33,155 nt of DNA from Candidatus Cloacimonadota bacterium (GCA_016838885.1 JAEKNW010000311.1:1-33155); one strand, 5' to 3'; shown: positions 11,688 through 32,768, numbered from the stretch's first letter. The notes: generated by a model from the letters alone, not told the origin. A program made the numbers and translations.

Positions 11688-11726
11688 TTAACCCCGGGCT
11701 AAACTATTTATCCCCTTCGGGGATTT
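11688..11726 (-). repeat. Dispersed palindromic repeat, copy 1
   Basis: On the minus strand this 39-nt segment matches 32946-32984 (plus strand) at all but three positions. It contains ATCCCC-TTC-GGGGAT (11710-11724 on the plus strand) and a CCGGGG block. The hairpin is followed on the plus strand by TTTT, so it might weakly terminate nrdJ transcription, but the T run is short. Confidence 0.7.
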
Positions 11727-11835: not shown

Positions 11836-11860
11836 AACCCTCTCATTTTCAGAGAGGGTT
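11836..11860 (-). terminator. Intrinsic terminator of the minus-strand giant operon
   Basis: A perfect 9-bp stem, AACCCTCTC (11836-11844) with GAGAGGGTT (11852-11860), has a 7-nt loop. Read on the minus strand it is followed by TTTTT. It begins 36 bp beyond the stop codon of the PorE-like gene, the last gene of the operon. Confidence 0.8.
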
Positions 11861-11895: not shown

Positions 11896-14136
11896 TTATT
11901 CTTCTAGTGGATTAATTTCCATAACATAGTTTGTTAAATCAACACCGGGGATAAACCAGCCATCGATAATAGATTTTACAGCTTTATCGAAACTATCATT
12001 CTGCATACCACCTTCAATTTGGATGGCAGTAACCTGAACACGGTTATTGTTATTAATCATCTGAACTTGGATTTTATTTTCAATACCATACTCAGTAGCA
12101 ATTCTGATAATTTTATTTTTAAGAATTTTAATTTCTGAGTTGGTGAAGAAAGGAGAATTAGCTTCTTGAGATTGTTGCACAATGGCTTGAACTTCTTCTT
12201 CAGGTAAGAATTGAGAATCATCTAAGTGTACTTGAGGAGTTGCCTCTTCTTTAGTCATTTCTTCCTCTTCAGCGGGGACTTCTGTTGATTCTGGAACTTC
12301 TTCTACAGGGATTACTTCAACTCCTTTTTCCGCTACAGGGATTACTTCAGCTTCAGGAGTTACTTCAGCTTCAGGAGTAACAACTTCAAGGGTTTTATCA
12401 CCTCTAGTTACTACAAATTCAACCCTTCTATTAAGCTGTCTGTTTTCTTCAGTATCATTAGGAACTTTTGGGTTCTCTTGTCCTTCTCCGCGATAATTAA
12501 GCATATCTTTATCAACGCCATTATCAATGAGATATTGGACAACAGATTGAGCTCTTCTTTCAGAGAGGTTTTTGTTATATTTAGCAGAACCAATATTATC
12601 GGTGTGGCCAACAACACAAACTTCAATACCGGGGTTTGCTTTGAGAGTTGTTACTAACATATTCAAACTTGGGAAAGATTCTTCTTTAAGAGTAGCTTTA
12701 TCAAAATCGAAATAGATGTTTTCGATAACATAATTCTTCTCTTCTAAGAGTTCAATTTGGATATCATGTTTAAGTTCATTGATACCCTCATCAAAAATAA
12801 TGACCCCTGAATAAGCTTGATAATTAGATTGAGTAATCTGAATATTTACAGTATCTATTCTAGGTAAATAGAGATTATAGTATCCGTTGGCATTGGATTG
12901 AGCAACATTGGTGATGACTTCATCATCAATAGTATAAGTCCAGTTGACGTCGGCAGAAACAGGTTTTCCGTAATTATCTACGACATCACCATATACTCTA
13001 ATTCCATCAATATACTCTTCGTTAAGAATAACGACTTTATAGATATCTTCCCCACCTTGACCACCCGGGCGATCTGAGGAGATAAATGCTTCGTTAGAAT
13101 TTTCTACTCTGAAATAGTGTCTTTCATTATAGATAGTGTTAATTTCAGGACCTAAGTTTATTGGGGCTTCCCAGTCAGTCCATGAAGACCCATTTTTTCT
13201 GGCTCTGAAGATATCAAATCCACCAAATGAAGAGTGTCCATTAGATGAGAAGAAGAGAGTTCTTCCATCCCAGCTGATAAAAGGACTTTGTTCGTCATTA
13301 ATAGTATTAATAGTAGAACCTAAGTTAATGGGTTCTTGCCAACCATTGATATTTTCTGAAACCCAGATATCATAACCACCTAATGAACCAGGTCTGTTGG
13401 AAGTAAAGAACATAACTTTATCTTCAAAAACATAGGGTTGTAGGTCGCTATAATCGGAGGAAACATTGTTTATTCTCACAGGTTTTGTGAAAGCATCTTG
13501 TACTTTTTCAGCACGGTAGATCCCTCTTTTACCATCATAATGACCAAAGAGATAAGCATAATTACCATCTTTCGAGAAAGAGTTCAATGATTCGTTACCA
13601 TTGGTTAATAATGTAGGAACCGGCTTAAGTTGTCCCCAAGAAGAACCAAGTTTTTCACTAACAAAGATGTTTTCTTTGAGAGCTTGGCATTTTCTGGATG
13701 ATGTAAAATATAATTGATTTCCATTAGGACTGAGAATCGGAGCAAAATCTCCATATTCTGAATTCAAATATTGTGGGAAATAACCGAATTGGTATTGTTT
13801 AATACCTTTAGCAGTTTTAATCACAGTATCTTCTATTAGCATAAGCAGGTTATCATAATATGCGTGGTCAATTCCAGACTTATTATTAACGTAGTGATCT
13901 AAGTTATCATAAGCTTTCTGCAAATCGCCTTTGGCCATTTGTACTTGAAACATAACTAGATAATTATCATAGTTATCTGGACTCTGAGCTATAGCTTTTT
14001 CCATAAGAACTTCAGCGTGAGGATAGAATCCTCCATCTAAGAAACTTTTAGCCTGCTCAATATAAGATTGACTTGTTTGAGCCAACAGAAAAGAAAAACT
14101 TAAAAGAGCCAAAGCAATAAAAAGTTTAGTTTTCAT
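11896..14136 (-). CDS. PorE-like OmpA-family envelope protein (TPR, beta-propeller, CRD, OmpA)
   Basis: The start is placed at 14136, not at the upstream in-frame ATG at 14238. AAGGAG lies 7 nt before it, a clean signal peptide MKTKLFIALALLSFSFLLA follows, and the upstream extension would be coded by a hairpin. The 746-residue product has TPR-like helices (about 20-95), a WD40/PD40 beta-propeller (about 105-365, repeated FTSNRPGSLGGYDIW-type blades), a carboxypeptidase-regulatory-like fold (about 380-460) and an OmpA peptidoglycan-binding domain (about 475-580, GHTDNIGSAKYNKNLSERRA). This four-domain order is that of PorE, a T9SS periplasmic component. P. gingivalis PorE is a lipoprotein; this protein has no lipobox Cys. 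Unusually it continues into a Glu/Pro/Val linker, which includes an exact 18-bp tandem duplication (12342-12377), and an unrecognised domain of about 85 residues. It probably anchors an outer-membrane complex to peptidoglycan. Confidence 0.85.
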   Translation of the reverse strand: MKTKLFIALALLSFSFLLAQTSQSYIEQAKSFLDGGFYPHAEVLMEKAIAQSPDNYDNYLVMFQVQMAKGDLQKAYDNLDHYVNNKSGIDHAYYDNLLMLIEDTVIKTAKGIKQYQFGYFPQYLNSEYGDFAPILSPNGNQLYFTSSRKCQALKENIFVSEKLGSSWGQLKPVPTLLTNGNESLNSFSKDGNYAYLFGHYDGKRGIYRAEKVQDAFTKPVRINNVSSDYSDLQPYVFEDKVMFFTSNRPGSLGGYDIWVSENINGWQEPINLGSTINTINDEQSPFISWDGRTLFFSSNGHSSFGGFDIFRARKNGSSWTDWEAPINLGPEINTIYNERHYFRVENSNEAFISSDRPGGQGGEDIYKVVILNEEYIDGIRVYGDVVDNYGKPVSADVNWTYTIDDEVITNVAQSNANGYYNLYLPRIDTVNIQITQSNYQAYSGVIIFDEGINELKHDIQIELLEEKNYVIENIYFDFDKATLKEESFPSLNMLVTTLKANPGIEVCVVGHTDNIGSAKYNKNLSERRAQSVVQYLIDNGVDKDMLNYRGEGQENPKVPNDTEENRQLNRRVEFVVTRGDKTLEVVTPEAEVTPEAEVIPVAEKGVEVIPVEEVPESTEVPAEEEEMTKEEATPQVHLDDSQFLPEEEVQAIVQQSQEANSPFFTNSEIKILKNKIIRIATEYGIENKIQVQMINNNNRVQVTAIQIEGGMQNDSFDKAVKSIIDGWFIPGVDLTNYVMEINPLEE

Positions 14137-14170
14137 GAAATCTCCTTTTTTAATGTTATTTTTCATTTTT

Positions 14171-14240
14171 TCAAAACTTCTTTTAAACTCTACATGATAG
14201 AGTTTAAAAGAAGTTTTGAGAGGGGAACCCCCTCTCAAAA
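14171..14240. promoter_or_regulatory. Two overlapping intercistronic hairpins (PorV-like to PorE-like spacer)
   Basis: Hairpin 1 has 22-bp perfect arms (14171-14192 and 14198-14219) with a 5-nt loop CATGA. Hairpin 2 has 12-bp perfect arms, TTTTGAGAGGGG (14214-14225) and CCCCTCTCAAAA (14229-14240), with a 3-nt loop. The arms share 14214-14219, so both cannot form fully at once. On the transcribed minus strand neither is followed by a U run, so they are not simple terminators. They may act in attenuation, RNA processing or 3' end protection. Confidence 0.75.
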
Positions 14241-14250
14241 CACTCTATGT

Positions 14251-15207
14251 TTAGAATCTAAATGTTAAACCATATCTATGATTATCTTCGTTGATTCCTT
14301 CTGAATCTTCTCTAACATAACCATAGTTCATTTCGACCATTTTGAATCTGATACCAAAACCGGCTGTGAATTGACCATCATTAGCACCAATTCTAACCCC
14401 GGCTTGTACTTGTGATAACATATCTTCCCAAGTAGGATCCTGAGTATTTCTCATTGTTCCAAGTCCTGAACCTAAATCAGTATCGCTACCAACATTTGTC
14501 CAATATTCTGCACCCATGTGAACAGTGATTTCATCACGGCTTTCTTCTTGTCTCAAATCTCCGGATACAGTAAGACCCTTGATTGGGAATACTGCAAGAC
14601 CGAGATTATATTGCATTGGAATACTTACATTATCTGATTTACTATACACGTCTCTAACATGTGCACCAAAAGAGATGTATTCGTTCATTTCATACATCAT
14701 TCCTAAGTCCATGCCAAAACCGGTAGTTTTGTCATCATCAATATTATCGAAATACATTTTGATACTTGAACCCCAAAGGAATTTTCCTGTGCGAGTAGCT
14801 AAACTAATATTGATATTGTTATCTTGAGCATCGTAGGTCCCGGTAGAGTTACCTGTTGCATCATAACCATCAAAATCAGTTACACCGGCATTTAACCAGC
14901 TTAGAGCTAAGTATCCGTATTTAAATCTCATTCCCATACCGGCATAGCTGGTTGTTCTATCTAAACCTAAGCCATCGGTATAATCTATTCCTACTTGATA
15001 ATCTGCAATCTTAGCCAATCCGGCAGGATTCCAGTAAGCAGCTGTGATATCATTCATATAAGCTGTTCCTGTTCCACCCATTGCCATACCTTTTGCACCA
15101 TAACCCATACGGAGATAAGGTTTATTGTGGTTATTATCAGCAATAAGAGCGGAAACAAGACCAAGCATCACTGCTACAACTATCATTATTTTTACACTTT
15201 TAGTCAT
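14251..15207 (-). CDS. PorV/UPF0164-type outer membrane beta-barrel protein
   Basis: A 318-residue protein with an N-terminal signal peptide (about 1-23, ending VSALIA). The PorV/PorQ/UPF0164 family mark follows: LRMGYGAKGMAMGGTGTAYMNDITAAYWNPAGLA. After it come alternating beta strands with aromatic girdles and a C-terminal strand ending YGLTFRF, as expected of an outer-membrane barrel. In T9SS, PorV binds the sorting domain of substrates and carries them from the translocon to the attachment complex; PorQ is a related accessory. Which subtype this is cannot be settled by eye. It lies 46 bp after the giant gene and precedes the PorE-like gene, suggesting that the three work together. GGAGG lies 5 nt before the ATG. 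A PorP/SprF assignment was considered, but the usual N-terminal signature of that family is absent. Confidence 0.82.
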   Translation of the reverse strand: MTKSVKIMIVVAVMLGLVSALIADNNHNKPYLRMGYGAKGMAMGGTGTAYMNDITAAYWNPAGLAKIADYQVGIDYTDGLGLDRTTSYAGMGMRFKYGYLALSWLNAGVTDFDGYDATGNSTGTYDAQDNNINISLATRTGKFLWGSSIKMYFDNIDDDKTTGFGMDLGMMYEMNEYISFGAHVRDVYSKSDNVSIPMQYNLGLAVFPIKGLTVSGDLRQEESRDEITVHMGAEYWTNVGSDTDLGSGLGTMRNTQDPTWEDMLSQVQAGVRIGANDGQFTAGFGIRFKMVEMNYGYVREDSEGINEDNHRYGLTFRF

Positions 15208-15231
15208 TTATTCCTCCAAATTTTTAGAGGA

Positions 15232-15247
15232 AGGGGGCGTACCCCCT
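15232..15247. promoter_or_regulatory. GC-rich hairpin between giant gene and PorV-like gene
   Basis: GGGGG (15233-15237) and CCCCC (15242-15246) form a compact stem, extended by an A-T pair, with loop CGTA. It begins 7 bp past the stop codon of the giant gene on the minus strand. No U run follows in the direction of transcription. It resembles the G-run/C-run hairpin at 14220-14236, which has the same position relative to the next stop codon. Confidence 0.65.
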
Positions 15248-15253
15248 CCCAAT

Positions 15254-18200
15254 TTATTGAATTGCTATCTTAACAACCTTATTAATTTCCTTAGCACCAT
15301 CAACTACTCTGATTCTTGCGAAGTAAGCACCACGAGCTAATCTCTTACCATCGTCGGTTCTTCCGTCGAATTGAATCATATTATTGGTGTCTCCACCGAG
15401 TGAGTTATGGCTCATTTCGCGAACAAGTTTACCTGCGAAATCGAAGATCTCGATAGTTACTTGTGCTTCTTTTGAAGTAGGAATTACGAAAGTACCAACA
15501 TCTCCTCTTGTAAGAGGTGAAGGATACATATAAGGTTTTGCTGTGAACATTAAGTCAACATTTGACCAGTCAATTTCAACCATGAAGTTCATCATCTTAG
15601 TGGTACTGTTTCCAGCTCTATCATAGATGGTTGCTTCAATACGATATTGACCTACTCCGTTAACAGGAACACGGCAAGCATAACTATTTGAGACATTAGC
15701 ATGTGTTGTATCAATTAATGCTAGATTATTATTATCAAAGACTTTCATCTCTAATCTATCTAAACCTGAGCTTGCCATTGCTTTAACTTCAGGCATGATA
15801 TCAGATAATTCTATCATAACATCAACAAACATGTTTTCTGCGTGAGTAAATGTAGCATTTACTACAGGTGATACAAATTCAATAGTTGGACTGTAAGAGT
15901 CTATTGGGTAACTTTGATTAGAAACAGAGTTTCCACCAGCTAGGTTAGAAGCCATTACAACAACTTTGATTGTATTTGCATCTTCAGGAATTACTCCACC
16001 GTGAACATTTAGGTTGAAGTAATATACATCACTTGTATCAGCAATTGCTTGGATAGTAAATGGTTCATAGATAACTTCATTACTTGGCATAGCGATTACG
16101 CTTGCCATGATAGAAGTATTATCTAAGTCAGAACCATTTCCATCAACAGTGAATCTGATTGCATTATTATTTTGAGTGTTAACCCAACCATTAGATGCTT
16201 CAAGTGCTGAGATGTTGATGATTGGAGCTGGAGCAGTAACTTGGAAGTTTCTAGTAACAGTTGTAATGTTACCAGCATTATCTTTTGCTTTAGCTTCAAT
16301 TACATAAGTTCCTGCAACTAAATTAGCTGCTGGTATAGCAAAGTTGAATGATTCAGGTGTTACTAAAGTAGTATCAGCCCAGGTTGAATCATTATTCAAT
16401 CCACTAACTTTTATTGAAGACATAGCCAAGCCTGACATATTATCATCAGCCACAATTTGAACATTAACACCATTACCAACTAATACTGAGTAGTTAGGAA
16501 CTGGATTAACAATTGTTAATTCAGGTCTGCTATTATCGATTGGATATGTTTGACCAGTTACAGTCTGAATATTCCATTCGTTTTCAGCAACTACTTCAAC
16601 TCTAACCGAGTTTTGTCCAGGAGATACAATACCACCATGGAAGTTAATTGTTCCTGAGAATAATCCATCGATTGGATTATCATTATCGTCATACGCTTGT
16701 TCCCAGGCAACAGAGAAAGGACCTTGAATAACTTGGTTATTAGGCATTTCAATGATAGTAGCAACAAGAGATTGAATATCAGTAGCAGTATGTCCTGATT
16801 CAACAGTTAAGTTGAATTTACTGTTTTGGGTAGTAGTAATCCACCATGAGCCACCTTCACCCACAGGAGTGAAGTCAACAACAGGAGCAGGACCACCAAC
16901 AATTTCGAAGTTGATAGTAGCAGAGCCAGTATTACCAACATGGTCAGTAACAGAAGCAACAGCAGTATGAGCACCAGGTGTTAAGTCTGAAGCTGCATAA
17001 ACAACTGAACCATTATTAACTTCGCCTATAACAACTTCACCATCTAAGGTTAATTTTACTGAATCAGAATTAATTCCTGAAGCACCAGAGTAATGTTGCA
17101 CGAAGACTCCATTAACCTCTTCAAGGAAATGACCTTGTGGATCAGTAAATGAGAAGGCTATTTGTACATCTGTACCATAATTAACTATTGGGTTTGCAGG
17201 AGCAGTAGCAGTAACAACAGGATCCATATAATCTAAACTGAATGTTTGTTCAGCAACATTATTAACACCTAAGTCATCTACAGCATTTACTCTAATCTTC
17301 AAACCAAGTGAGTTTGGAAGTTGTAATTGAGCAAATCCGAACTGATACTCATCTTCGTTTTGAACATTACCGTGGTCGTCTGTGTATTCTAATGACTCTG
17401 GATTTGAAGTTTGCATAAGAATTCCGGCAGGGTTAAGATCTGTGATAGCAAGGATACTAACATTGATATTTTCTAATTCTATTTCACCATCACCTGGTTC
17501 AACAGTCATAAGAACTTGGTTAGACATTGCAGGATTTACCCACCATCCGTTTTCAAATCCATCATTAAGAATAGTAATGGTTGGTCTGTTAACTACCACG
17601 TTTGCGATAACGTTAGCAGCCATTACATTAACTTGGTTGAGGTTATTAACAGCAGTCCACTGAACATTAAGAGAAGCAACTTCTCTGCTTCTTATTGGTT
17701 GTGGAACTAAGTAAACTAACTCATCAACTGTTAAATCATAAGAGAATTCATTACCTGAAACAGTAATATCATTCATAGGAACGTTTATAACAGCATTAAC
17801 TGCAGGATCGTTGTTAGTAACAACTAAACTATAATCAACAAGACCTGTTTCAAGATCTTCCATAGTAGCAGTTAAAGTATTGTTTTCAACTGAGATGTTT
17901 TCAACAGCAAATTGAATAGTGGGAAGTGAATTATCAACAAAGAATGTTTCTACATGGCTAGCATGATAACCATAGCTATCAACATTAACCATTAATTCAT
18001 TTTCACCAGCATTCATTGCTAAGTCAAATGTTAATACACCGTTATTTAGAAGGATGCTAGTAACATTATTAACATCATCATTTAGAGTAACTGAAATGTT
18101 AGCTAAACCGAAGTTTACAGGTAATTGAAGACCTTGAGTCTCTTCATCTTGATCAAGTGATACTTCAACGGAAGCATTTTGAAGATGAGTCCAATCAGCA

Positions 18201-21200
18201 CCATCAATTTCGATCATATCGATATCATAAGCAAACTCAAGTGAGTGCAATACAAATTCAGCAACAGTAACTACTCTATTAACAGGAGCTGTGAAAGTCA
18301 TAGTTGCATCAGTTTCATTATATTCAACATCGATTTCTACGAAGTCACCAATAACTGCATCCCAAGCAAGAGCAACAACATTACCTTGATCAGCAACAGT
18401 ACCTGTAAGAGGTAAGGTATAAACTGCGTTTCCGGCAATATTAGATTGAACAAGAACTTGGTCTGTAAGTGGTGTATAATGGTCAGCTAAAGGCATATCG
18501 TTATCTAACATAGCAAACCAGTAAGGATTGTTATATTCAACAGTATTGCCATTAGAAGCAGCCATAGCATCTAATTCAACGAATTTAATCCAAGCAGCAT
18601 CATTAGCTACACCTGATAACCAGTAGCCCGGTAATTCGTTATTAGCATTAACAACTAAGTCGAATTCATTGTCTTCATTAATAGTTTCATAACCAGCATA
18701 GCCATTTTCATCAATTCTGATTACGTTTGGCATGCTAATTGTTTCATCTATTACTAAGATATTATTTTCATGAATTTCGATATATTCGCTAGCAGTTTCA
18801 TCTTCAGTAAGACCGAAATTAAAGTCGTTAGCATCAATACTATATCGATATGAAGATTCTGCACCGTTGTTCATTATTACAAGAACTTTAATAGAATCAG
18901 CATTTGAAATAGCTTCAGCATTGAAATCGAATTCATAGTAAGGATCATTATTTACTGAATTGATAGCAAAATCAACCCATCCGTTATTACTAGTATAGTA
19001 TTGAGCTACAACAGCTGTAACATTATTACCCCAGTTGGTAACCTTAGCATACATTACGTCAGAACTGATTGCTTCATTATCAAATTCAAAACCGGTAATA
19101 ACTGCATAAGGGTCATTTTCATCAGGAGTAACAACTACAACATCTTGTAGAACGTTATTAGTGAATCCATCATCATCAGTAACGATAGCTTCGATTGTGT
19201 AAGTACCAACATTAGCAAGAAGAGCTGTATTCCATACATAAGTGTAAGGAGCAGTTGTTATTACATCATGAGATACACCGTTTACTTTGAATTCAACTGA
19301 AGCTACATCATTAGGCACTAATTCAACTTCCGGAGTTGTGCCTGATTTCCAAGTATCAATAAGACCTTCAATAGTAACTAAAGCACCTAATTCATACTCA
19401 TATAATGGATTATTAGGATCTGCTTGAGGTTGAATATCGAGGGTAATTCCTGGAGCACTAGCATCGAAATAGACTGTTGAAGCTAAATCAATATCTGTAT
19501 GGTTTGCAGGTACTGCAAGATCACTAACAATAGCCTTGAAGTTGTAGAAACCACTTACAAGACCTAAGTTACTGAATGTTACTTCAGATACCCCTGCGTT
19601 TAGAACAGCAAGAGTTGTACCTAAAGACATCCAATCATCAGGTTCAGAAACTTCAGCATATTGAAGTTCCATATTAAGATCAAGAACTTCATTAGCATCA
19701 ACATCTAAGTTAAGAGAAATCTCATCGTTCATATTGAAGATTGTGTCATCGCTAACACCTGCAATTACAGGATTAGATACTGAAACAGCTCTATCAATAA
19801 TAACATCAATTTCTACTTGAATTTCATTGAATCTGACAACAGGTCCGAAACCGAAGGTATAAATACCATCAACATCATCAACTGTTGGCGAGAATACGAA
19901 GTTAGCGATACCGGTTACAGGATCAACAGGCAACACTAGAGGAGCATTCCAATCGGTAGCACCCGGAGCTTTTACCCAACTATTAATTTCAGTAACATCG
20001 GCGCCAACAGTTAATTCTATTTCAACATCACCGTTGAAATGAACACCATTAGAAGCAACTATGTTATTTACGTTATTTATAGCAATCACGGTAACATTAT
20101 CTCTAACTTGGTAAGTAACCATAGATTCACTTACGTTTGTATATTCGTCTGTTACTTCAGCTTTGAAGTCGTAGCTTTCATTCATTAACCAGTTGTTTGG
20201 AATAATCCATTGGTTATTAACATCAAGTACGATTGGAGTCCATACATCTGCACCTGCTAAAGACCAGAAGTAGTTAATAGTTAAATCTTCAATAGCAGTT
20301 ACATTATCCATTGCGTTAGCATTGAATGTGTAAGCCAGGTCTCTTTCAATATAACCATTATCATTTTCTTCTAATACTAAAGCACTTGTTGGAGCATCTG
20401 TATCAACACTGAAGCCAAATACTTCATTATAAGTATGAGCAACAAAGTCAGCAGTAGTAACTTCGATTTGATATGTTCCAGTTGTTAAAGTGGAGATATC
20501 TAATGTATAGTTAACTATAGTAGGATCAACTTGGTTATTTGTATCATAAGCAACTGCGTTAACTTCAGTACCATCAAGAGCGATAACAATGCTTGATAAA
20601 TCAAGAACAGCATTATCAACTGTTATAGCGATATCAAGAGCATTATTATTTGCTACCCAGCTATCAATAGCTACAGGGTTACCTGCTTGAGTTACTGTAA
20701 GATCAGTAATCATAGGAGCATCGCTATCTACGATATCAACAACATAAGGTATACCGCCGTTAGCAATGAAGCTAGCTTGGTCAGCAACATTATTGAAGAT
20801 ATTTTCAATTTGAACAGCAATTTGAACTTTTTCAGCAAAGAGATAATCCATGCCAATAGTCCAGTTGTATTCATTAGCAATGAAGCCACTTAATTGGTTC
20901 CAAGGAGAAGCTACATTATCATTTTCATCTAAGAAACGATACATATAGTTAACTTGGTTGAAGAATTCAGGGTGAGTAGAAGTGAAGTTTCCGATAGAAA
21001 CAAGATATTCTGAACCTCTGTTTACTTCAGTAGTAGCAACACCTTCAAGTGTTGATACTGTAATTTCAGGAACGATAGTAGAGTTCCAGATATGTAAGTT
21101 AGTTTCGTTAACAACCTCACCGAAGTTATATTCAGAAACTGTTCTTACTGTATAATCACCATCCATGTTAGCAATATTCCAGTTAACTTCCATATATTTG

Positions 21201-24200: not shown

Positions 24201-27200
24201 TCATAATTAAAAACATCACCGTTAATAGTTAATTCTACATAATCAACATCAATCCAAGTGCCTACAAGAGCAGTGATATTAATGTTATTATTAGCAGGAG
24301 TAATATAGTCATAAACTACTTGAATACTATTTAAACCAGCAGCAAGCACATCTGTAACTTCAGGAGCTGTTACATCAGCCACTGCATACATAAAGATCTC
24401 TTCACTTACAGATCTCATAGTTGTGCTTGTAGTTAAGACTCTTACATAATAGTAACGAGGAGATGTTCCGTAGTTAGCATTAGCAAGATATTGGGTATAG
24501 CGATCAGTAGTAAGATCCCAGTTAAATCCGTAAGGATAAGTAGTATCTTCAACTAAAGGTACAACAATATCATTTGGATCTAAAACATATCCATCAACAT
24601 TATTGTCAGTGTCATTATTAGCATCATAATATACTTCAAATCCAACTTTATTAACAACAGTGTTTGGATCATGAACTAAGAATTCTAAATCAACAACATT
24701 GCCACTATTTAAAATAGTACCAGGAGCTGTAGTAGCAACAACAGTTGCAGGAGAATGGCTATATCTTAACTCTTGAACTTGAGTGAATGAATTATCTAAA
24801 TTATCTGTTGCAGTAACAGTAATAGTATAATTACCTTCAGCTAAGTCATAAGCAGAATAGTTACCATTGAATCTTAACTCAACAGCATTTCCATTTTGAA
24901 TGCCAAATACATTAGTAAAGGCATTTGTTGATGGAGTAACTGTTCCTAAAGCAAATACGATATTAGCATTATTAATACCAACACCATCTGTACCGAACAT
25001 AGCTGGATCTTCAAGATTAACTCTTAGAGCAGTCCAATTTTGGTTATTGTTAATAGTTGAAGTGATATCCCAATCGTAATTACTATTACCATCAGCAGAT
25101 ACAAACTCAATTGCATTATTAACAATTGGTCTAGGTGCGGTAGCATCTAATAAGATATTTTGAGTTTCAGATTTTTCGAAACCATAAATATTTGTATAGG
25201 TTACTGTGAAATCTGTGTTACCAAGATTTGCAGCTGCAGCTGTAAAGTCACTAGCATCGATTGTAAGACTTGCAACGTTACCATTGAAGGTAGTTGGATT
25301 CAAGTCATTAACAAGCTCATTACTAGAAACTACGAAATCAGTTAATGCAGGAGCAAAAGCAGGGTCAAATGTTTCACCAAAGTTAGTGAAATCAAATGAG
25401 AATTCAAAATTACCTAATACAGGGTTTTGAGTTCCTGGATTATTTAAAGCAACATCGAAATCATTACCATCAACAATTGCAGTAACTGTTACTTCGTGTT
25501 CGAAAGGATTAGTTAATACATTAGCGAATGGATTTCTGATAGATGTGATATCAAAATCAACAGCATCATCTTCAGTAAATTGTGATGGATCAACTATTGT
25601 TACAGGGAAAGTAGCGAGCCAGTTTGCTCCATGAGAAGAAACAAGTAATGGATCGATAGCTACTGTAGTTGTTGGTCCAAATTGACCAATAGTTAAACCA
25701 GTAATATCTTCAATTTCGATATCATCTATATACTCTTTATATTCAGTATTAATATATACTTCTAAAGTAGCATTAATAACTTCAGTTCCATTAATTGCTA
25801 AATAGTTAATTGCATCACCATTAGGTGTAGAAGTAACTAATTGAGCATGTTTAATAAGAGGAACGATTGGTCCACCACCAGCGAAGGAGAGGATTTTATC
25901 TGATTCAGCACTTACTAAACCAGTAAATGAAGTAGCTTTTGCTTTAACAATAGAAGATGTTTCAAGTGGATTCACTGAATGTTGGTCACGTACAGTTAAA
26001 CCACCAATTTCAGCTACCCAAAGATTATTTGCAGAATCCCAAGTTGCATCAACATTGAAGCTAGGAGCAACATCAAGAATTGTATTGAAATCCATGAAGG
26101 TTGCGAAAGCTTGAGCTGTTGTATTTGCTAGAGGAGCTGTACTTGTGAAAGTCATTCTGATATGAGCATCTGTATCACCAGGTGTTACATAATACATACC
26201 ATTTTCACCTAAAGTTTCACTCCAAACATCCATTGCTACAACTTCAGTTGTGGAACCATCAACTACTTGGAATACGCCAGTTTGTCTTCCGGTTCTAACT
26301 TGATTTGTAGAATAAGTAATTCTATAATCAACAGCTAATGGGCCAACAGGTTTATTTACTACTACATTTGTATTGAGATAATAAACATCTTCAACAGCAT
26401 CATAAGCAAGAGCTACCCAGCCTTGATTTAAGCCATTGTAGTTATTACGATCAATTTCAACATTAGTAATTGTTACACCGGGGCTATCATTAGGTTGTGG
26501 TTCAATATTAAGGATAAGACCAATGTTGTTACCGGAACTTACAAAAGGTCTGGTAGCTGTATTCATCCTGTCTAAACCATCATACTGGAATCCAATGATA
26601 CTATTAGTATCAGCATCACTTGATTCAAAACCTAAGCCGATAGTTGGTCCATAAGGTTCATATCTGTTTGAAGGTGAGTTATAGTCTTCATCACCTGAAT
26701 AGTTCAAGTGACCAACTAAGTCTTCTAGTTGATTGAATTGAATTTCAACTAAATCAATGTTCTCAACATCAGTAGGAAGAACCGGACTAAATTTCCAAAT
26801 AGCCTCTAAGGTAGTACCAACAGTTTGAGTTCCTAAATATTCAGCAGTCCAACCAGCACTAATAGTAGGTAGTGGGATAGCTGAAGGATCTAAAGAGACA
26901 CCATTCAAGTCATTTATAACTTTCTTTACGTAAATATGACCTTCAAAGAAGTAATCTCCACTAGCATCGAGTGTTAAATCATAGTAATTACGATTTTCTG
27001 GATTCAATGGAGCATTTAGTCCAATAATTCCATCTGCTACTGCATAATCAGAAGTATTATTGTTGTCTTTAACAATAAAATATCCATCTTCATAAACAGG
27101 AACTTCAAGATCTATTTTGATATTTTGAACTAATTCAATTGGATTTGGATTGAAGAAGTCATTATAACGAATATCAACATCTATCTGCTCGCCATCATCA

Positions 27201-30200
27201 TAATGATTCCAGCAAGCTTGGACATCTGGAGTCTCAATCCAAGTTATTTCATGAATATATATAGTAATACCATTAACATTTATAAGTGTAACATCATCGT
27301 CACCTAGTACCCATTGAACATCAGGGAAATTATTAGTGATATTATCAAAATCAGCAATAGGATTAACATCAGCTAAAACAGAGTTTACCTGCATTGTTAA
27401 TTTAACATCATGTTCAGGGGCAAACCAACCTTCAGGGTCGATTCCACTATATCTATTATTATTTATACCATTGAATGTATAAGCTGGAACAGCTAAACCA
27501 ACAAGGTTTTCACTGTAAGGAACAGCAACAAAGTTATAGTTTGATCTTGCATTAACTTCAAAGCTATATACATCATAACCATCTGAAGCTAAATCAGCAG
27601 TTTGGAAGTTTGCAAAATTAAAGTCTCCATTATTCCAAGTATAGGTATATCTATATTTTACATAGCCAGGTTTCACAGTTTGGAATACTGGACCTTGAAC
27701 ACTAGTTGGGTTTCCGGCAACTGCTCCATTATAAGATAGAACAACATCATTGTTATCTAAATGGCCTGCATAAGTGATTACGTTAGCTCTGATTTCAAAA
27801 GGAATACTTGAATCAAGAGTAAAGTAATTATTTGTTTCCACGCCATTTACGAAAACTGCGATATCTGTGATATCAACTTGGTTGTTATCTACAAATGGTA
27901 CGTGAGATGTAGGAAGACTATTAGCAGAAGAGCTATCAGCATAATGTTGATAAGGATGGTCGATTGTTACAGTAGCTCTTAATGTAGCATCTTGAGTTCC
28001 TGTACCAAAATCAGTAAATTCATAAGTATTTACACCATCACTGAAGTTAGCAGCAACATAAGCAGCATTTAAGTCTATATCAGTCCCATTGTTTAGTTCA
28101 ATAGAAACACCATCAATTCTCTCAACTTGAGTAAGATTGAATTTAACAATAACTTTATTGTTATTTTCAATTATATATTGATGATTACCGTGATCAGCAT
28201 GTTGAGTTGCTTGAACATTCTCAACAATAACATTTGATACTGTAGGCATTGGGAAGATATCAACAATAGTACTTGTTCCACTTTCATTGTCTAATCTATC
28301 TTTAGCAACAATATCAAAATTAATAGTGTTTGTTGAGAAATTAGCAGGAATTGGAACATTCCACTGATAAGCAATACCAGTAACACTGCTATAAGCCATG
28401 TTGGTGATACCTAATTCAGGACATGATAATCTCACACTTGGATTCATAATCCCGGTATGAAGGTCAGAAATGTTATATCTAATCACATAATTTGTGCCTT
28501 CAGTAGCAAAATTTGGAACTGAATTTACTGTAATTAGTGGATTAGTATTATCAAATCTGATTAGATTTTCATGAGCAAAATTAACTCTATGAACAGCATT
28601 ATCTCCTGTTTCAAAGCTAAATGCTAAAGTACCGGTAATATCCAAATAATCACCAGAAGAGTAGCTCAATGGGTTAACAGTGTAATCACCAGCATAGGTG
28701 ATTTCCCAGTTGCCGTCTCCGTTGAGTACTGCAGAGGTTGTAGCATTTACGGAAGCAAAATCATCAAAGTAAACATCAAAGAGATAGTCTTCAACGCCTC
28801 TTAAATTTGATTCAGCAGGAACAATAGCATTGTATGAAGAAACTTCAACTACAAATTTGAATTCACCTTCTTCATTGACTCTATTGCTCACTTCATCATC
28901 AATACTATTAATATGATAGAAGTTTGTTGAAACAACCTCAATATCATTTGTAAGATGAATAAAGCGAAGATAAGCTTCAGCAGAGTCATGATACCAAGCA
29001 TCTGCCCCATAAGGGAATGGAGGATCATTTTGTCTGCCAGGGTTTCCACCAAAGTCATTAGGAGCTCTAAGAACTAAGACATTGTTAACAGCTTGATCAG
29101 GAATCCCAGCTAGGGTAATAGTGAGATCGAATTCTGAATAAGCATCTTCTCCACTAGTTGGTAAAGTAACAGGAGTTCCCTTACCTTCAGCAACTATAGA
29201 AACACTTGAACCGGTTAGGACATTATATAAGTCTTGATTAAAGACAAGTCCTGTCCAACCGGTTTCTCTCAACGGTTCTGAAGTTTTAATTGGGAGTTCA
29301 ATGGTATTTGTATTATTAGTAACATAATATGTGTTACCATCTTCATTAAGATCAGATAAATAACCACCAACTAAAGCAGAACCGTCTGCATTCAAAATTC
29401 CAGGATTCTGGTTATCAACTTTTGTAGTTGCAGTTGAGGTTAAAGCTTCTGGTGCTACATAACCACCATCAGTGTAAGGAACTGGGTTAACTGTTAAAAC
29501 AACATCTAATAACCCTGTTGAAGTCTCAGCAACTAATGGTAAGAAGTTATTTGTTAAATTATAGAACTGAATTGATTCATCAACTGCTGGGCCATTAGCA
29601 GTATAAGAACCTGTTTCAGTGAATGTTCTGTTATTAACAGGATTTCTAATAGCTAATGTCCAGTTATAATCTTTGTTGGAAGTACCGATTTCAAATTCTA
29701 TTTGGTTACTTGAAACTGTTCCATCATTAGCTGGATTTGTTACTGAATCATAAGCATAAGATGGATTACCAGGACTTAAGCAATAAGGATTAGCAATTAC
29801 ATTACTAGTAATAGTAGGCCAGCTTGGTTCTTCAGGACGATTAACTTTAAATCTCTTAATACCTGCAGCATATACTTCAAGGTCATAAGGATTAGTCTGT
29901 CCACCAACAGGATCATCACCAACAGTTCTGGTCATAACAGATATTTCAAGATCAGTTCCAGCTTGTCCGAAAGTAAATTCTTTACTTCCTGCAAGGAAAT
30001 CATCTTCATCAAAAGCTGACATAGGAACAGTTAGTACTGCAAAACCTGAATTTGGAGAACCAGCAATAGCTTCAAAATCAGCTGTTAAAATCTGTGTGTT
30101 AAAAGCACTAGGAAGAGCCGGATCATTAGCATCAAAGACTACTTTCTCGGCTTGATCTATTCCATTAACTCTAACTCTAAAAGTAACAACATTATTATGT

Positions 30201-32158
30201 GTATCATTAGTAAAGTAGATTTCACCTTGGTCAGGACCAGCCTGATAGGTTGAGTTAACATAGAATTGTTTCCAATTATTTGGTGTATCATAAGTTGTAG
30301 GGAATCCACCAGCATGACTAGAAGTTAGGTCATGTGAACCTATGTTAGATTGTGACACTATTGGACCTGAATAACCAAAGAAACTATCTTCAATAGTGAT
30401 AGTTTTGCTTGAGGTTTTTATGTTACCTGCATTATCTTGAATATAAGCAGTAACTGTCCAATCACCTTCAGGGTAGATAGTCCAATCAGAAGCTTTCCAT
30501 TTGAATGTAGGCATAGTCCCCAATGAATTAACATTAGCGAATGCTTGAGTAGCAACAAAGTCCACGTCAGTTTTTACTTCAGCATTTTCTCCAAGAAGAC
30601 CTGCTCCAGGGTAGAAATATTTTTTGGTTGCACCTTGAGATACTTCAATCCAATACTTAACAAGCTCTTTACGATTTTGCTCAGTATCATTAGAGAAATC
30701 TCTTTTTACATCAAAGGTGAAATATAATTCAGGTATAGAATCAAATGAATCTCCTGCTGAAATTTCATAAGGAGAAGGATCATTTGCACCTTCATTAATG
30801 TTTCTTGTTATAGTATTATTAGTAGGAACTTGGTTTGTAGCAGTATCCAAGACTTGAAGTCCGGATTTGATGTTCCCTAATTTTTTAAATTCAGGAGCAA
30901 CATTATCTACAACCCAATCGACAGCATTTAATAATGAATTACCAGCACTTAAAAGAGGATTAGCAACTTCAGGTTGTGGAGTATATACTACTTCATTACC
31001 TGCAGCATCAGCTATTTTCTTCAAAGTGAATCCATAAATTCCATTAACAATAGTGTGACCAGGAATTGTACCATCCCAAGTAAAAATTACATCATCACCG
31101 GAAACTTGTACATCAGCATCACCATGAGTATACTGAAGTAAGGTTGAATAAACCTCATCAGTATTTTCATTTTGAACTTGAAGATAGAAGGTGTTAATTT
31201 GACCTGCATCTCCGAAGTTAGGAATAGTTATTTTTCCTTTAATATCATTAGGAGTACTGTCCCAACCTGTAACTTCTACAGATTGAGGAGAGAACCTATA
31301 TTGATCATTATGAGCTACAGGATTACTTCCGTCAGGAACTGAAGGATATGCTGTATCAGCACCTACCGGATCGCCATTGCTTTTTCCACTAATGACATCA
31401 CCAGCAGCTGAAAGGCTTTCAACACCGTGAGTATTGATCATTCTGATAGGGATTGATATCACTGGAAGATAACCAGTTGGACCAGGTAATCTGTCATTAG
31501 CTATATCACCTTCTGCAAGTGTATGTGAATATGAGAAAACACCAGCTGAAAGACTTGCCATAACTTCATCAGCAACACCTAAAGATGAAAGATCTAAATA
31601 TACAGTATCTACATCTGTTGTGGTTGGATTCCAAGCTCTTCTGAACTTAAAAGTAACCTCATCACCAATACCAACAAAATCTTTTGTGGCATCACCATCA
31701 AATTCTATCCAGGTAGAATTTGAGGCTGTAATGGTTGGAAATACTCTGTTATCAATCTTTAGTTGATGTGTTTCTTCAATTGGTGAAGCTCCACCATCAT
31801 AAACTTCAACGGTAAAATCAATACCTGGTGCGGTATTGTTTACGTTACCTGATGAAACAGTATAAGTACCTTTATAAAGCACATTAATTGTCTCAGGAGT
31901 GAGAATTAATGGGTTATCGTAAGATAAATCTGCTAAATCATCAGTAAATATTCTAACTTGAGTAATATTACCATCAGGGGTAATATTAACTGTAAATTCT
32001 ACAGTATCCCCAAATCTGGCAATGTTATCTGCTACAATTGCGTCATCCGCGTCAGTAACACTGTAAGTTACGTCAGTGATTGTAGTACCACCGGTAGCAA
32101 AAGCTAAACTTGTCAGCATCACGAACAATAAGATTAAAATCGGATGTTTGTTCAACAT
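15254..32158 (-). CDS. Giant secreted Ig-like repeat surface protein with FlgD/T9SS-like C-terminus
   Basis: A 5,634-residue open frame without interruption. It starts MLNKHPILILLFVMLTSLAF, a signal peptide probably cut after AFA, with GGAGG 9 nt before the ATG. Nearly all of the rest is a chain of beta-sandwich modules. Many end in a linker of the form V-D-x-x-x-P (DNTAPAFDF, DTNAPVITAV, DTDAPTSAL, DSDAPMITD, DNSLPTIQF, DNSRPELTIV) and many contain GTYxIEAxAxDNxGN-like strands typical of bacterial Ig-like/cadherin-like folds. It is rich in Asn, Asp, Val and Thr, with only about five Cys. The last 98 residues (YPSPLTRGDVG..., IEIFDFAGKLVR, DGKRLARGAYFARIRV) match the FlgD-Ig/T9SS C-terminal sorting-domain pattern. 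It is a probable surface adhesin or matrix protein displayed through T9SS with the help of its two downstream partners. No catalytic domain is recognised. Ligand and function are unknown. Confidence 0.88.
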   Translation of the reverse strand: MLNKHPILILLFVMLTSLAFATGGTTITDVTYSVTDADDAIVADNIARFGDTVEFTVNITPDGNITQVRIFTDDLADLSYDNPLILTPETINVLYKGTYTVSSGNVNNTAPGIDFTVEVYDGGASPIEETHQLKIDNRVFPTITASNSTWIEFDGDATKDFVGIGDEVTFKFRRAWNPTTTDVDTVYLDLSSLGVADEVMASLSAGVFSYSHTLAEGDIANDRLPGPTGYLPVISIPIRMINTHGVESLSAAGDVISGKSNGDPVGADTAYPSVPDGSNPVAHNDQYRFSPQSVEVTGWDSTPNDIKGKITIPNFGDAGQINTFYLQVQNENTDEVYSTLLQYTHGDADVQVSGDDVIFTWDGTIPGHTIVNGIYGFTLKKIADAAGNEVVYTPQPEVANPLLSAGNSLLNAVDWVVDNVAPEFKKLGNIKSGLQVLDTATNQVPTNNTITRNINEGANDPSPYEISAGDSFDSIPELYFTFDVKRDFSNDTEQNRKELVKYWIEVSQGATKKYFYPGAGLLGENAEVKTDVDFVATQAFANVNSLGTMPTFKWKASDWTIYPEGDWTVTAYIQDNAGNIKTSSKTITIEDSFFGYSGPIVSQSNIGSHDLTSSHAGGFPTTYDTPNNWKQFYVNSTYQAGPDQGEIYFTNDTHNNVVTFRVRVNGIDQAEKVVFDANDPALPSAFNTQILTADFEAIAGSPNSGFAVLTVPMSAFDEDDFLAGSKEFTFGQAGTDLEISVMTRTVGDDPVGGQTNPYDLEVYAAGIKRFKVNRPEEPSWPTITSNVIANPYCLSPGNPSYAYDSVTNPANDGTVSSNQIEFEIGTSNKDYNWTLAIRNPVNNRTFTETGSYTANGPAVDESIQFYNLTNNFLPLVAETSTGLLDVVLTVNPVPYTDGGYVAPEALTSTATTKVDNQNPGILNADGSALVGGYLSDLNEDGNTYYVTNNTNTIELPIKTSEPLRETGWTGLVFNQDLYNVLTGSSVSIVAEGKGTPVTLPTSGEDAYSEFDLTITLAGIPDQAVNNVLVLRAPNDFGGNPGRQNDPPFPYGADAWYHDSAEAYLRFIHLTNDIEVVSTNFYHINSIDDEVSNRVNEEGEFKFVVEVSSYNAIVPAESNLRGVEDYLFDVYFDDFASVNATTSAVLNGDGNWEITYAGDYTVNPLSYSSGDYLDITGTLAFSFETGDNAVHRVNFAHENLIRFDNTNPLITVNSVPNFATEGTNYVIRYNISDLHTGIMNPSVRLSCPELGITNMAYSSVTGIAYQWNVPIPANFSTNTINFDIVAKDRLDNESGTSTIVDIFPMPTVSNVIVENVQATQHADHGNHQYIIENNNKVIVKFNLTQVERIDGVSIELNNGTDIDLNAAYVAANFSDGVNTYEFTDFGTGTQDATLRATVTIDHPYQHYADSSSANSLPTSHVPFVDNNQVDITDIAVFVNGVETNNYFTLDSSIPFEIRANVITYAGHLDNNDVVLSYNGAVAGNPTSVQGPVFQTVKPGYVKYRYTYTWNNGDFNFANFQTADLASDGYDVYSFEVNARSNYNFVAVPYSENLVGLAVPAYTFNGINNNRYSGIDPEGWFAPEHDVKLTMQVNSVLADVNPIADFDNITNNFPDVQWVLGDDDVTLINVNGITIYIHEITWIETPDVQACWNHYDDGEQIDVDIRYNDFFNPNPIELVQNIKIDLEVPVYEDGYFIVKDNNNTSDYAVADGIIGLNAPLNPENRNYYDLTLDASGDYFFEGHIYVKKVINDLNGVSLDPSAIPLPTISAGWTAEYLGTQTVGTTLEAIWKFSPVLPTDVENIDLVEIQFNQLEDLVGHLNYSGDEDYNSPSNRYEPYGPTIGLGFESSDADTNSIIGFQYDGLDRMNTATRPFVSSGNNIGLILNIEPQPNDSPGVTITNVEIDRNNYNGLNQGWVALAYDAVEDVYYLNTNVVVNKPVGPLAVDYRITYSTNQVRTGRQTGVFQVVDGSTTEVVAMDVWSETLGENGMYYVTPGDTDAHIRMTFTSTAPLANTTAQAFATFMDFNTILDVAPSFNVDATWDSANNLWVAEIGGLTVRDQHSVNPLETSSIVKAKATSFTGLVSAESDKILSFAGGGPIVPLIKHAQLVTSTPNGDAINYLAINGTEVINATLEVYINTEYKEYIDDIEIEDITGLTIGQFGPTTTVAIDPLLVSSHGANWLATFPVTIVDPSQFTEDDAVDFDITSIRNPFANVLTNPFEHEVTVTAIVDGNDFDVALNNPGTQNPVLGNFEFSFDFTNFGETFDPAFAPALTDFVVSSNELVNDLNPTTFNGNVASLTIDASDFTAAAANLGNTDFTVTYTNIYGFEKSETQNILLDATAPRPIVNNAIEFVSADGNSNYDWDITSTINNNQNWTALRVNLEDPAMFGTDGVGINNANIVFALGTVTPSTNAFTNVFGIQNGNAVELRFNGNYSAYDLAEGNYTITVTATDNLDNSFTQVQELRYSHSPATVVATTAPGTILNSGNVVDLEFLVHDPNTVVNKVGFEVYYDANNDTDNNVDGYVLDPNDIVVPLVEDTTYPYGFNWDLTTDRYTQYLANANYGTSPRYYYVRVLTTSTTMRSVSEEIFMYAVADVTAPEVTDVLAAGLNSIQVVYDYITPANNNINITALVGTWIDVDYVELTINGDVFNYDLVTPVNWTYDADDIGEVVITAKAYDFMGNESLEADFSTVLTIVNPSYDKFYNLTLIDYENYNSILDNTINNGTIYSPNNDLTTNDVRLYALYPNGLDGIAEIQFFVNRIETATGNVLATLPVNNNNAINPQYGNDNIVYPANCYDATADVWNSWITVDSNLYTNNGNFAGTDYSYEFYAVLIDSYTTVEVIPQAGIVNSDANFRVDYLKPELTVNNASVTHTSYAYYDGTVDRLVFDYVDYVNDPRNVNDYVVDFNGVNVADNANITIDALTNTVSIPWTGLDEIELEGIVTYTVTVTDFNGNVSVGTPIDVYVDNLAPQTEIANLKYLTDVDHGGDAMNNFHVFDGNPIHVMADNSQNLTIQIDKSQILGLSNENTVMWRNRIQPWYFNNDDDIYPPVKLYSNIDNAGWNLIAYDHEVNASGMYEFNITVDTGDVVEYAVIAEDTRGNVEGDVVLRDALGNVIRPLNGLLEADELDNAVNLTVNVLYPVDITTTIVNHNVDDVISGLTLLTANVATPANIVSVDFQYSDGTNWISLGTDDSMVDVAYEFNYNSAALPYFVPGVHVELTGAVTGFRTAELANNNGIWSILVNDLARDTYDVKYYVDINNDGVIDANERANYEVKTDAINADGYAFQFDTTTIPDGSYLFRAVPFDNLDATDDQAAAVEMNLIIDNTAPAFDFTALNFVMLDTYKTLAENVEFSLAYANPNDVHTVQAWLVDVNNPANTYILVNDVYAAYDVRPTDFSVVLAGIPDGNYYLEVTVQDFVFNVNNQTPALGDDLHIDTNAPVITAVNNALNMSGIYTETHQFTVAYNDYLAQLLDANGDGLGIKALEATFTHNSIVDVVDVKVSDDGAMLVFDWTPSQAMMNEVINGQDNILVNVDVALTDHNDYVSAIFNAGNFTLRSAEVGAKIMVVSDFRNGTETYHQTSVTNNNEITDVIGGNNINMFAFLPEGNNVIDPNNVRFEYWDGTNWIQFAASAVWNPIANFAGTGTISGYAKYMEVNWNIANMDGDYTVRTVSEYNFGEVVNETNLHIWNSTIVPEITVSTLEGVATTEVNRGSEYLVSIGNFTSTHPEFFNQVNYMYRFLDENDNVASPWNQLSGFIANEYNWTIGMDYLFAEKVQIAVQIENIFNNVADQASFIANGGIPYVVDIVDSDAPMITDLTVTQAGNPVAIDSWVANNNALDIAITVDNAVLDLSSIVIALDGTEVNAVAYDTNNQVDPTIVNYTLDISTLTTGTYQIEVTTADFVAHTYNEVFGFSVDTDAPTSALVLEENDNGYIERDLAYTFNANAMDNVTAIEDLTINYFWSLAGADVWTPIVLDVNNQWIIPNNWLMNESYDFKAEVTDEYTNVSESMVTYQVRDNVTVIAINNVNNIVASNGVHFNGDVEIELTVGADVTEINSWVKAPGATDWNAPLVLPVDPVTGIANFVFSPTVDDVDGIYTFGFGPVVRFNEIQVEIDVIIDRAVSVSNPVIAGVSDDTIFNMNDEISLNLDVDANEVLDLNMELQYAEVSEPDDWMSLGTTLAVLNAGVSEVTFSNLGLVSGFYNFKAIVSDLAVPANHTDIDLASTVYFDASAPGITLDIQPQADPNNPLYEYELGALVTIEGLIDTWKSGTTPEVELVPNDVASVEFKVNGVSHDVITTAPYTYVWNTALLANVGTYTIEAIVTDDDGFTNNVLQDVVVVTPDENDPYAVITGFEFDNEAISSDVMYAKVTNWGNNVTAVVAQYYTSNNGWVDFAINSVNNDPYYEFDFNAEAISNADSIKVLVIMNNGAESSYRYSIDANDFNFGLTEDETASEYIEIHENNILVIDETISMPNVIRIDENGYAGYETINEDNEFDLVVNANNELPGYWLSGVANDAAWIKFVELDAMAASNGNTVEYNNPYWFAMLDNDMPLADHYTPLTDQVLVQSNIAGNAVYTLPLTGTVADQGNVVALAWDAVIGDFVEIDVEYNETDATMTFTAPVNRVVTVAEFVLHSLEFAYDIDMIEIDGADWTHLQNASVEVSLDQDEETQGLQLPVNFGLANISVTLNDDVNNVTSILLNNGVLTFDLAMNAGENELMVNVDSYGYHASHVETFFVDNSLPTIQFAVENISVENNTLTATMEDLETGLVDYSLVVTNNDPAVNAVINVPMNDITVSGNEFSYDLTVDELVYLVPQPIRSREVASLNVQWTAVNNLNQVNVMAANVIANVVVNRPTITILNDGFENGWWVNPAMSNQVLMTVEPGDGEIELENINVSILAITDLNPAGILMQTSNPESLEYTDDHGNVQNEDEYQFGFAQLQLPNSLGLKIRVNAVDDLGVNNVAEQTFSLDYMDPVVTATAPANPIVNYGTDVQIAFSFTDPQGHFLEEVNGVFVQHYSGASGINSDSVKLTLDGEVVIGEVNNGSVVYAASDLTPGAHTAVASVTDHVGNTGSATINFEIVGGPAPVVDFTPVGEGGSWWITTTQNSKFNLTVESGHTATDIQSLVATIIEMPNNQVIQGPFSVAWEQAYDDNDNPIDGLFSGTINFHGGIVSPGQNSVRVEVVAENEWNIQTVTGQTYPIDNSRPELTIVNPVPNYSVLVGNGVNVQIVADDNMSGLAMSSIKVSGLNNDSTWADTTLVTPESFNFAIPAANLVAGTYVIEAKAKDNAGNITTVTRNFQVTAPAPIINISALEASNGWVNTQNNNAIRFTVDGNGSDLDNTSIMASVIAMPSNEVIYEPFTIQAIADTSDVYYFNLNVHGGVIPEDANTIKVVVMASNLAGGNSVSNQSYPIDSYSPTIEFVSPVVNATFTHAENMFVDVMIELSDIMPEVKAMASSGLDRLEMKVFDNNNLALIDTTHANVSNSYACRVPVNGVGQYRIEATIYDRAGNSTTKMMNFMVEIDWSNVDLMFTAKPYMYPSPLTRGDVGTFVIPTSKEAQVTIEIFDFAGKLVREMSHNSLGGDTNNMIQFDGRTDDGKRLARGAYFARIRVVDGAKEINKVVKIAIQ
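15560..17560 (-). repeat. Three tandem ~220-230-residue units near the giant protein C-terminus
   Basis: Units start near 17545 (GWWVNPAMSNQVLMTV), 16850 (SWWITTTQNSKFNLTV) and 16190 (GWVNTQNNNAIRFTV). Shared internal marks in the second and third units are VIxxP-F, a FxxxxNxHGGxxxP segment, VxVxAxN, and SYPID/TYPID followed by a new Ig-like module with DxMSG or similar. The first unit is more diverged. Each unit pairs one long and one short beta-sandwich. The repetition is at protein level and is not obvious in the DNA, so it is old. Confidence 0.6.
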
Positions 32159-32175
32159 AATTTGAAACCTCCAAA

Positions 32176-32340
32176 TTACAATTTTTTTTCTAATATTTGT
32201 AAGAATCTACCGAACATTTCGGTATTTCTTGTTTCAAAACTCTTAAATTCTTCTACTTTTCTCTCAATTTTTCCAGACCCATGAGCTGGTTCTCCTCTGT
32301 TCTTAACAATCATTAAAATCCCATTAAAACTGCTATTCAT
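32176..32340 (-). CDS. Possible 54-residue leader protein upstream of the giant gene
   Basis: An open frame beginning MNSSFNGILMIVKNRGEPAH and ending FLQILEKKL, stopping 17 bp before the giant gene start. AGGAG lies 9 nt before this ATG. An in-frame ATG two codons upstream (32346) is only 3 nt from the AGGAG and is less likely. The second half is highly charged and probably helical. I recognise no family. It would be the first cistron of the operon, between the promoter candidate at 32423-32451 and the giant gene, and its stop lies just before the giant gene's own ribosome site. It could be a small structural or regulatory protein, or a translated leader. It may also be chance. Confidence 0.42.
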   Translation of the reverse strand: MNSSFNGILMIVKNRGEPAHGSGKIERKVEEFKSFETRNTEMFGRFLQILEKKL

Positions 32341-32408
32341 AAGCATTTTCTCCTATATAAGTTTATTAAAAATTCTACTCAAAAACTTGCATTTCACGCA
32401 TAAACGTT

Positions 32409-32688: not shown

Positions 32689-32768
32689 AAAATTAGTTAC
32701 CAAAGTCTGTTATCACTTCAAGTCTCTACTGTATACTTTTTAGACAGGTGTAAATGCCTAGATGGAAA

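Follow-up and report, generated by a model that had tools for sequence, protein, structure and literature searches.

Current accounts of the T9SS describe one general carrier, PorV, for all type A sorting domains and dedicated carriers for type B substrates (PMC12618676, PMC12635249). Type B substrates of F. johnsoniae stay attached to an SprF-like barrel of their own; five operons also encode a PorE homologue, for which a static complex anchored to the cell wall has been proposed (PMC12618676). The PorE-PorP-PG1035 complex of P. gingivalis is of this kind (PMC9143113). In the same organism, PorU and PorZ keep their C-terminal domains (CTDs) and pair 1:1 with PorV and PorQ, respectively (PMC5562754). 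The giant adhesin SprB of F. johnsoniae and its dedicated barrel SprF are encoded in one operon (PMC12635249, PMC9143113).

The locus described here lies in a stretch of 33,155 nucleotides (the window, meaning the whole stretch of DNA that was analysed) from a Candidatus Cloacimonadota bacterium. T9SS in this phylum has been mentioned merely as possible (PMC11285876), and no literature on the present gene set in Cloacimonadota was found. The cassette encodes a giant surface protein, an outer-membrane barrel and a PorE-like OmpA protein. Similar to the F. johnsoniae operons (e.g. Fjoh_3952-3951-3950; PMC12618676), which contain a substrate gene, its own substrate-specific barrel of 14 strands and, in five operons, a PorE homologue, and similar to PG1035-PorP-PorE of P. 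gingivalis, with its substrate, own barrel, PorE and proposed static wall anchor (PMC9143113), the cassette has a substrate, its own barrel and a PorE-like gene in a conserved run, as in type B/PorP-SprF/PorE operons. In contrast to these operons, its sorting domain is type A/PorU-type and not type B, its barrel is PorV/PorQ-type and not PorP/SprF, its OmpA protein lacks a lipobox, and some genomes fuse barrel and anchor into one protein with three OmpA domains. The PorU-PorV and PorZ-PorQ pairs (PMC5562754) share with the cassette a barrel of the PorV/PorQ family and a type-A-like CTD, which would be retained in the cassette as well, and their CTDs are the closest by tree, profile and fold. 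However, these pairs are machine parts (sortase, A-LPS delivery) with no OmpA partner gene, whereas the cassette cargo is a giant repeat protein, in whose scanned parts no enzyme domain was found. SprB-SprF offers the same combination of giant adhesin, dedicated barrel and operon layout (PMC12635249, PMC9143113), but it has a type B CTD and a PorP/SprF barrel and is mobile on a track, whereas the cassette has a peptidoglycan anchor and no PorL, PorM or PorN was found. The logic of a substrate with its own barrel and wall anchor is already known from Bacteroidota; the parts of the cassette differ and seem to derive from the PorU-PorV side.

Organization of the cassette locus

The window is one contig (C311) of a 3.34-Mb genome in 350 contigs that is 99.3% complete. 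The genes for the giant, the barrel and the OmpA protein were located as consecutive ORFs on the minus strand, at the positions given in the initial annotation. The features of the locus are as follows:

15254..32158, minus strand: giant surface protein of 5,634 aa, with a signal peptide, a long Ig-like body and a terminal sorting domain
15254..15577, minus strand: C-terminal sorting domain of the giant, ~105 aa, type A/PorU-type, Ig-like sandwich of 7 strands
15233..15250, minus strand: G+C-rich hairpin in the 46-bp giant-barrel gap, without a U tract after it on the coding strand
14251..15207, minus strand: PorV/PorQ-type outer-membrane barrel of 318 aa with 14 predicted strands; proposed dedicated carrier
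14213..14241, minus strand: 13-bp hairpin with a T-rich tail, terminator-like, in the barrel-OmpA gap
14173..14217 (approximate), minus strand: second stem in the barrel-OmpA gap, ~21 bp, near-perfect
11896..14136, minus strand: PorE-like periplasmic anchor with a signal peptide without lipobox, TPR, PD40 propeller, CRD-like stretch, OmpA domain and C-terminal tail
12427..12714, minus strand: OmpA domain with the peptidoglycan-binding motif GHTDNIGSAKYNKNLSERRA
11838..11856, minus strand: terminator-like hairpin 3' of the OmpA gene, with the tail TTTTTGCTTG

The outer boundary first assigned to the cassette, 32346, marks where a 56-aa ORF upstream of the giant begins and not the start of the giant itself. 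This ORF was considered as a part of the cassette and set aside, as none of 12 other giants showed a counterpart in front of it. The barrel gene starts 46 bp past the end of the giant. The OmpA gene more likely starts at the ATG at 14136, just after AAAAAAGGAGATTTC, which gives a protein of 746 aa and a gap of 114 bp to the barrel, than at 14238, to which the listed ORF extends.

In 13 loci, of which 10 are unfused and 3 fused, giant and barrel are 8-12 bp apart; the gap measures 46-68 bp in the window and seven others, each of which has a G+C-rich hairpin of differing sequence and without a U tract. Such short gaps, seen in many relatives, favour a single transcript, which the gap hairpins could tune or process. 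The run had been described as ended by a clear terminator. A terminator-like site does follow the OmpA gene, but another terminator-like hairpin lies inside the run (14213-14241), between the barrel and OmpA genes, which weakens the case for cotranscription in the window. A scan for sigma-70-type promoters upstream of the giant gave no excess over shuffled sequences.

The remaining genes of the window are ordinary: besides dnaA and lon, they encode an M1 aminopeptidase carrying a T9SS sorting domain, a B12-dependent ribonucleotide reductase and a VimE-like deacetylase. VimE in P. gingivalis is tied to the surface polysaccharide, the attachment point of T9SS cargo; the deacetylase of the window (7750-9219), which contains DUF7033, scores 111 bits against a cut-off of 440. 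The dnaA gene lies ~10 kb from the cassette, and in four loci of one family (L034, L036, L039, L041) the cassette is just beside apparent gyrB and gyrA genes, identified by their N-termini only. Upstream of the giant, 32760-32815 is occupied by GAGGTT-like units in a short tandem run, read by eye. The cassette is also flanked by a 36-bp inverted repeat (11691-11726 and 32946-32981) whose copies are 94% identical; past the right copy, 174 bp of contig remain. The idea that this repeat delimits a mobile element was considered and rejected, as no transposase was seen in the window and the motif was not found around the cassettes of relatives. Two copies of a related unit occur in another locus (L038), outside its cassette. 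Based on these three observations, the repeat is probably a dispersed intergenic one.

Domains of the giant, barrel and OmpA proteins

The giant of the window begins with the signal peptide MLNKHPILILLFVMLTSLAFA, and a domain scan found matches to the bacterial Ig-like families Big_13, Big_7 and Big_3_2 in its C-terminal half. Complete giants range from 1,533 to about 7,500 aa, and the body of the giant in L041 contains 37 CHB_HEX_C_1 repeats by domain scan. Judged from sequence, the bodies are unrelated between loci (Ig in the window versus chitobiase-type repeats in L041) and only the ends are common. The last ~105 residues can be aligned across all giants and contain DFAGK and ARGTYFAR motifs. 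The FlgD/T9SS-like C-terminus recognized in the initial annotation is borne out by matches to FlgD_ig (29.9 bits, cut-off 27) and to the T9SS type A model TIGR04183 (30.5 bits, cut-off 23), the latter of which matches 22/22 cassette members. The label of a FlgD-like sorting domain agrees with the FlgD_ig match, but PorU-type, within type A, is the better description. PF18962, its Pfam counterpart, scores 23.5 bits against a cut-off of 27 on the isolated window domain and 29.2 bits within the C-terminal half of the giant. The type B model TIGR04131 gave no match in the window domain and matches 4/22 members at E <= 0.01.

The PorU-type assignment was probed using trees, sequence comparison and fold comparison. 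The 22 cassette domains form one clade (99/94; all bootstrap trees) that is sister to nine other domains, and the two groups jointly stand apart from 34 ordinary type A domains (100/96). All six of the sister domains that were scanned belong to PorU-like sortases, and all five that were scanned among the eight nearest non-cassette matches belong to PorU. The closest solved T9SS domains by sequence are those of PorU (6za2) and PorZ (5m11), and PorU is among the best fold matches of the CTD. By these comparisons, the cassette CTDs are a separate clade, sister to the CTDs of these bacteria's own PorU sortases.

A CTD profile built from the giants themselves finds one strong match per genome, exactly in the barrel-bearing genomes (22 genomes, 106-160 bits), while the next-best match anywhere in 59 genomes scores 78.6 bits. 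Because this profile was trained on the same proteins, clades were held out in turn. Most held-out giants still outscore every background domain tested; when the fused clade is held out, its CTD scores of 70-81 overlap the best background score of 71, without clean separation. T9SS substrates are plentiful in the window's genome, as indicated by 96 Por_Secre_tail matches, and the cassette domain is one special case among them. In the fused lineage, another large protein is encoded directly upstream of the cassette giant (L051:1-4158, L050:16843-19998, L052:16278-20000). Its sorting domain is of the ordinary type A, which suggests that the special domain tracks the cassette and not protein size. 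A diverged giant of at least 1,686 aa in L167:1-5357, with a C-terminal domain of 60 bits and the start of a PorV-type barrel at the contig end, is perhaps from a second cassette lineage.

The barrel had been assigned to a PorV/UPF0164 type, of which the first half is supported. The PorV/PorQ model NF033709 scores 86.1 bits against the window barrel (cut-off 90) and matches 20/20 aligned barrel members at E <= 0.01 (best 5.8e-31). The UPF0164 identity was rejected, as PF03687 found nothing in the window's genome, in a search whose controls did not match either; a PorP/SprF identity was rejected as well, PF11751 having no match in the window's genome and weak, scattered matches elsewhere. The structural model, of moderate confidence (pLDDT 70.7), has 14 strands (FadL-type) and a fold closest to PorV and FadL, with the PorV of the substrate-CTD-bound complex 8gl6 as the best match, and PorV is also nearest by sequence among solved structures. 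The window barrel ends at its last strand without a C-tail. A tree that included 24 PorV/PorQ paralogues of the same order groups the barrels of the cassettes and those of the fusions together (96/97), such that the barrels next to giants form a clade of their own, as anticipated. The window's genome also contains a generic PorV-type paralogue (C15, L161; 209 bits), which could carry the giant and counts against a dedicated carrier.

The OmpA protein has the architecture first read from it. Matches were found to TPR_19, a PD40 propeller, a CRD-like stretch and OmpA, in the order known from PorE, with the CRD weak in the window and detected at E 5e-7 in L041. The PorE model NF052230 scores 209.3 bits against a cut-off of 600, with nearly the full model length covered. 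Unlike PorE, the OmpA protein does not look like a lipoprotein: in the window its first 45 residues contain no cysteine, and none of 16 relatives showed a clear lipobox. In three genomes (G019, G032, G044), the gene directly after the giant encodes a fused protein of 763-767 aa in which the barrel is joined to a CRD-like stretch and three OmpA domains. PorV-type barrels have both ends in the periplasm, and consequently the fusion places the OmpA domains at the peptidoglycan side.

Distribution of the cassette and of T9SS machinery in Cloacimonadota

The barrel family occurs in 44/125 Cloacimonadota genomes (26/71 near-complete), with one copy in each. Among 59 genomes, the window barrel and 22 close relatives are separated by a wide gap from other paralogues, and all 17 named barrel relatives from GTDB genomes come from Candidatus Cloacimonadota MAGs. 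Most of the genomes are MAGs, and giants often break contigs. The order giant-barrel-OmpA was read in the window and 18 related loci, and it was seen again in GTDB loci and in additional genomes. In 21 genomes outside the set from which the CTD profile was built, a giant-type CTD lies at most ~100 bp upstream of the barrel in 17; a giant-type CTD interrupted by runs of N is upstream of the barrel in G059, a weaker one (64 bits) precedes it in G100, and the contigs of G096 and G107 begin inside the barrel. In G023 only the last 73 residues of the giant remain before the barrel, as the contig starts within the giant gene. Thus, the conserved adjacency implied by the initial annotation was found throughout, as the giant or its visible C-terminal part precedes the barrel in 42/42 genomes with upstream contig. 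An OmpA gene or domain accompanies the barrel in 43/44 genomes; in G100, which has giant and barrel, no OmpA was found in the 1.07 kb left on the contig. The recurrence of the gene set throughout the phylum argues against chance. Orthologues residing away from giants would speak against the module, and none was seen for the barrel, but one OmpA paralogue in G011 (one contig, 2,246,820 bp) is an exception. The protein encoded before this second PorE/OmpA-like one (L055:7264-11629) has 665 aa and no clear family, and is not a cassette barrel.

The core T9SS presupposed by the initial annotation is present as regards the translocon, as SprA was found in the window's genome (SprA_N in C119, 2,127-aa frame) and in all near-complete genomes searched (50/50). 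No match to the GldM or GldN profiles exceeded the cut-off in 59 genomes, and GldL gave none in 10; because these searches had no positive control genome, they do not separate divergence of PorL, PorM and PorN from absence. A separate run in L164:487-9968 encodes a TonB-dependent-receptor-like protein, ExbB, ExbD, a second ExbD, TonB, a ~1,010-aa protein with a PorZ-like C-terminus and a generic PorV/PorQ-type barrel. The ExbB-ExbD-TonB run is conserved also in L161, L162, L163, L165, L166, L173, L174 and G000:C15, its domains having been scanned in L164. Since no PorL, PorM or PorN was found, this run is a candidate replacement for the T9SS energy source. Another pairing of a CTD protein with a barrel was seen in L170:117-6186, where a PorU-like C25 sortase (1,685 aa) is immediately followed by its own PorV2-type barrel.

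Proposed function, alternatives and significance

The initial annotation proposed a module analogous to known adhesin sets and differently built, and both the adjacency in every genome with upstream contig and the separate barrel clade support it. Based on the observed gene order, one-to-one occurrence, separate clades, fusion and presence of SprA, it is proposed, with a probability of about 0.7, that the cassette serves one giant protein as its dedicated T9SS carrier and anchor. First the giant would reach the periplasm via its signal peptide, and its C-terminal domain would then take it through the SprA translocon. Next, the PorU-type domain would stay docked on the adjoining PorV/PorQ-type barrel, which the genomic pairing suggests is specific to this one substrate. 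Finally, the PorE-like protein would hold the barrel from the periplasmic side while its OmpA domain grips peptidoglycan, as the fusion in three genomes suggests. The outcome would be a static, non-covalent link from cell wall to outer membrane to an adhesin- or coat-like giant, in which the body is exchangeable and the docking parts are fixed. By analogy with PorU and PorZ and with the PorE-linked operons, we infer both the retention of the CTD and the static role.

It is also conceivable, although unlikely, that the barrel functions exclusively as a docking receptor, like PorQ for PorZ, to which an ordinary PorV hands over the giant after carrying it from SprA, and that barrel and OmpA protein together then hold it. 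The window barrel scores higher with the PorQ profile (65 bits) than with the PorV profile (24 bits), the generic PorV-type barrel is available in the genome, and PorZ-PorQ and PorU-PorV are 1:1 subcomplexes in P. gingivalis (PMC5562754); however, the retained type B adhesins that are known exit and anchor via the same barrel (PMC12618676). The occurrence of one barrel per giant across 44 genomes agrees both with a carrier and with a docking receptor.

The remaining alternatives concern the relation of the giant to its neighbours. Barrels linked to OmpA commonly tether the outer membrane, and in the window a terminator-like hairpin of 13 bp stands between the barrel and OmpA genes. On this view, the two proteins would make up a general tether between outer membrane and peptidoglycan beside which the giant is a mere neighbour, exported like other type A substrates. 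This is very unlikely given that the CTD of the giant is a separate clade found only beside the cassette barrel, that the barrel was not found without a giant where sequence reaches, and that the large protein upstream in L050-L052 has an ordinary type A domain. The least probable of the readings considered is a moving adhesin system, in which the giant would be linked through the barrel and OmpA protein to a track or motor. While a giant adhesin with its own barrel is the layout of the gliding SprB-SprF pair (PMC12635249), the PorL, PorM and PorN profiles found nothing (in searches without a positive control genome), the barrel lacks a C-tail, and a peptidoglycan-binding partner suggests a static anchor, as in the PorE-linked F. 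johnsoniae operons (PMC12618676).

On the preferred reading of a dedicated carrier and anchor, the evolution of the set can be sketched, though only speculatively and with a broader scenario that is itself doubtful. The T9SS of Cloacimonadota might work without PorL-PorM-PorN and be powered otherwise (e.g. by TonB-ExbB-ExbD-ExbD), and the giant branch might have evolved from a PorU-PorV pair, the docking domain of the sortase having moved onto giant bodies and a dedicated barrel having turned into its own wall anchor, sometimes as one polypeptide. Its origin would then be independent of the type B/SprF solution of Bacteroidota.

If the proposal is true, the cassette represents a dedicated PorV/PorQ-type carrier for a domain of the type A class, and its wall anchor is built in. 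For studying how T9SS carriers become anchors, the natural barrel-OmpA fusion offers a ready construct. Furthermore, the small CTD common to unrelated bodies leads to the prediction that passengers fused to it would be displayed on the surface, and the cassette may provide a handle on the cell surface of a largely uncultured phylum.
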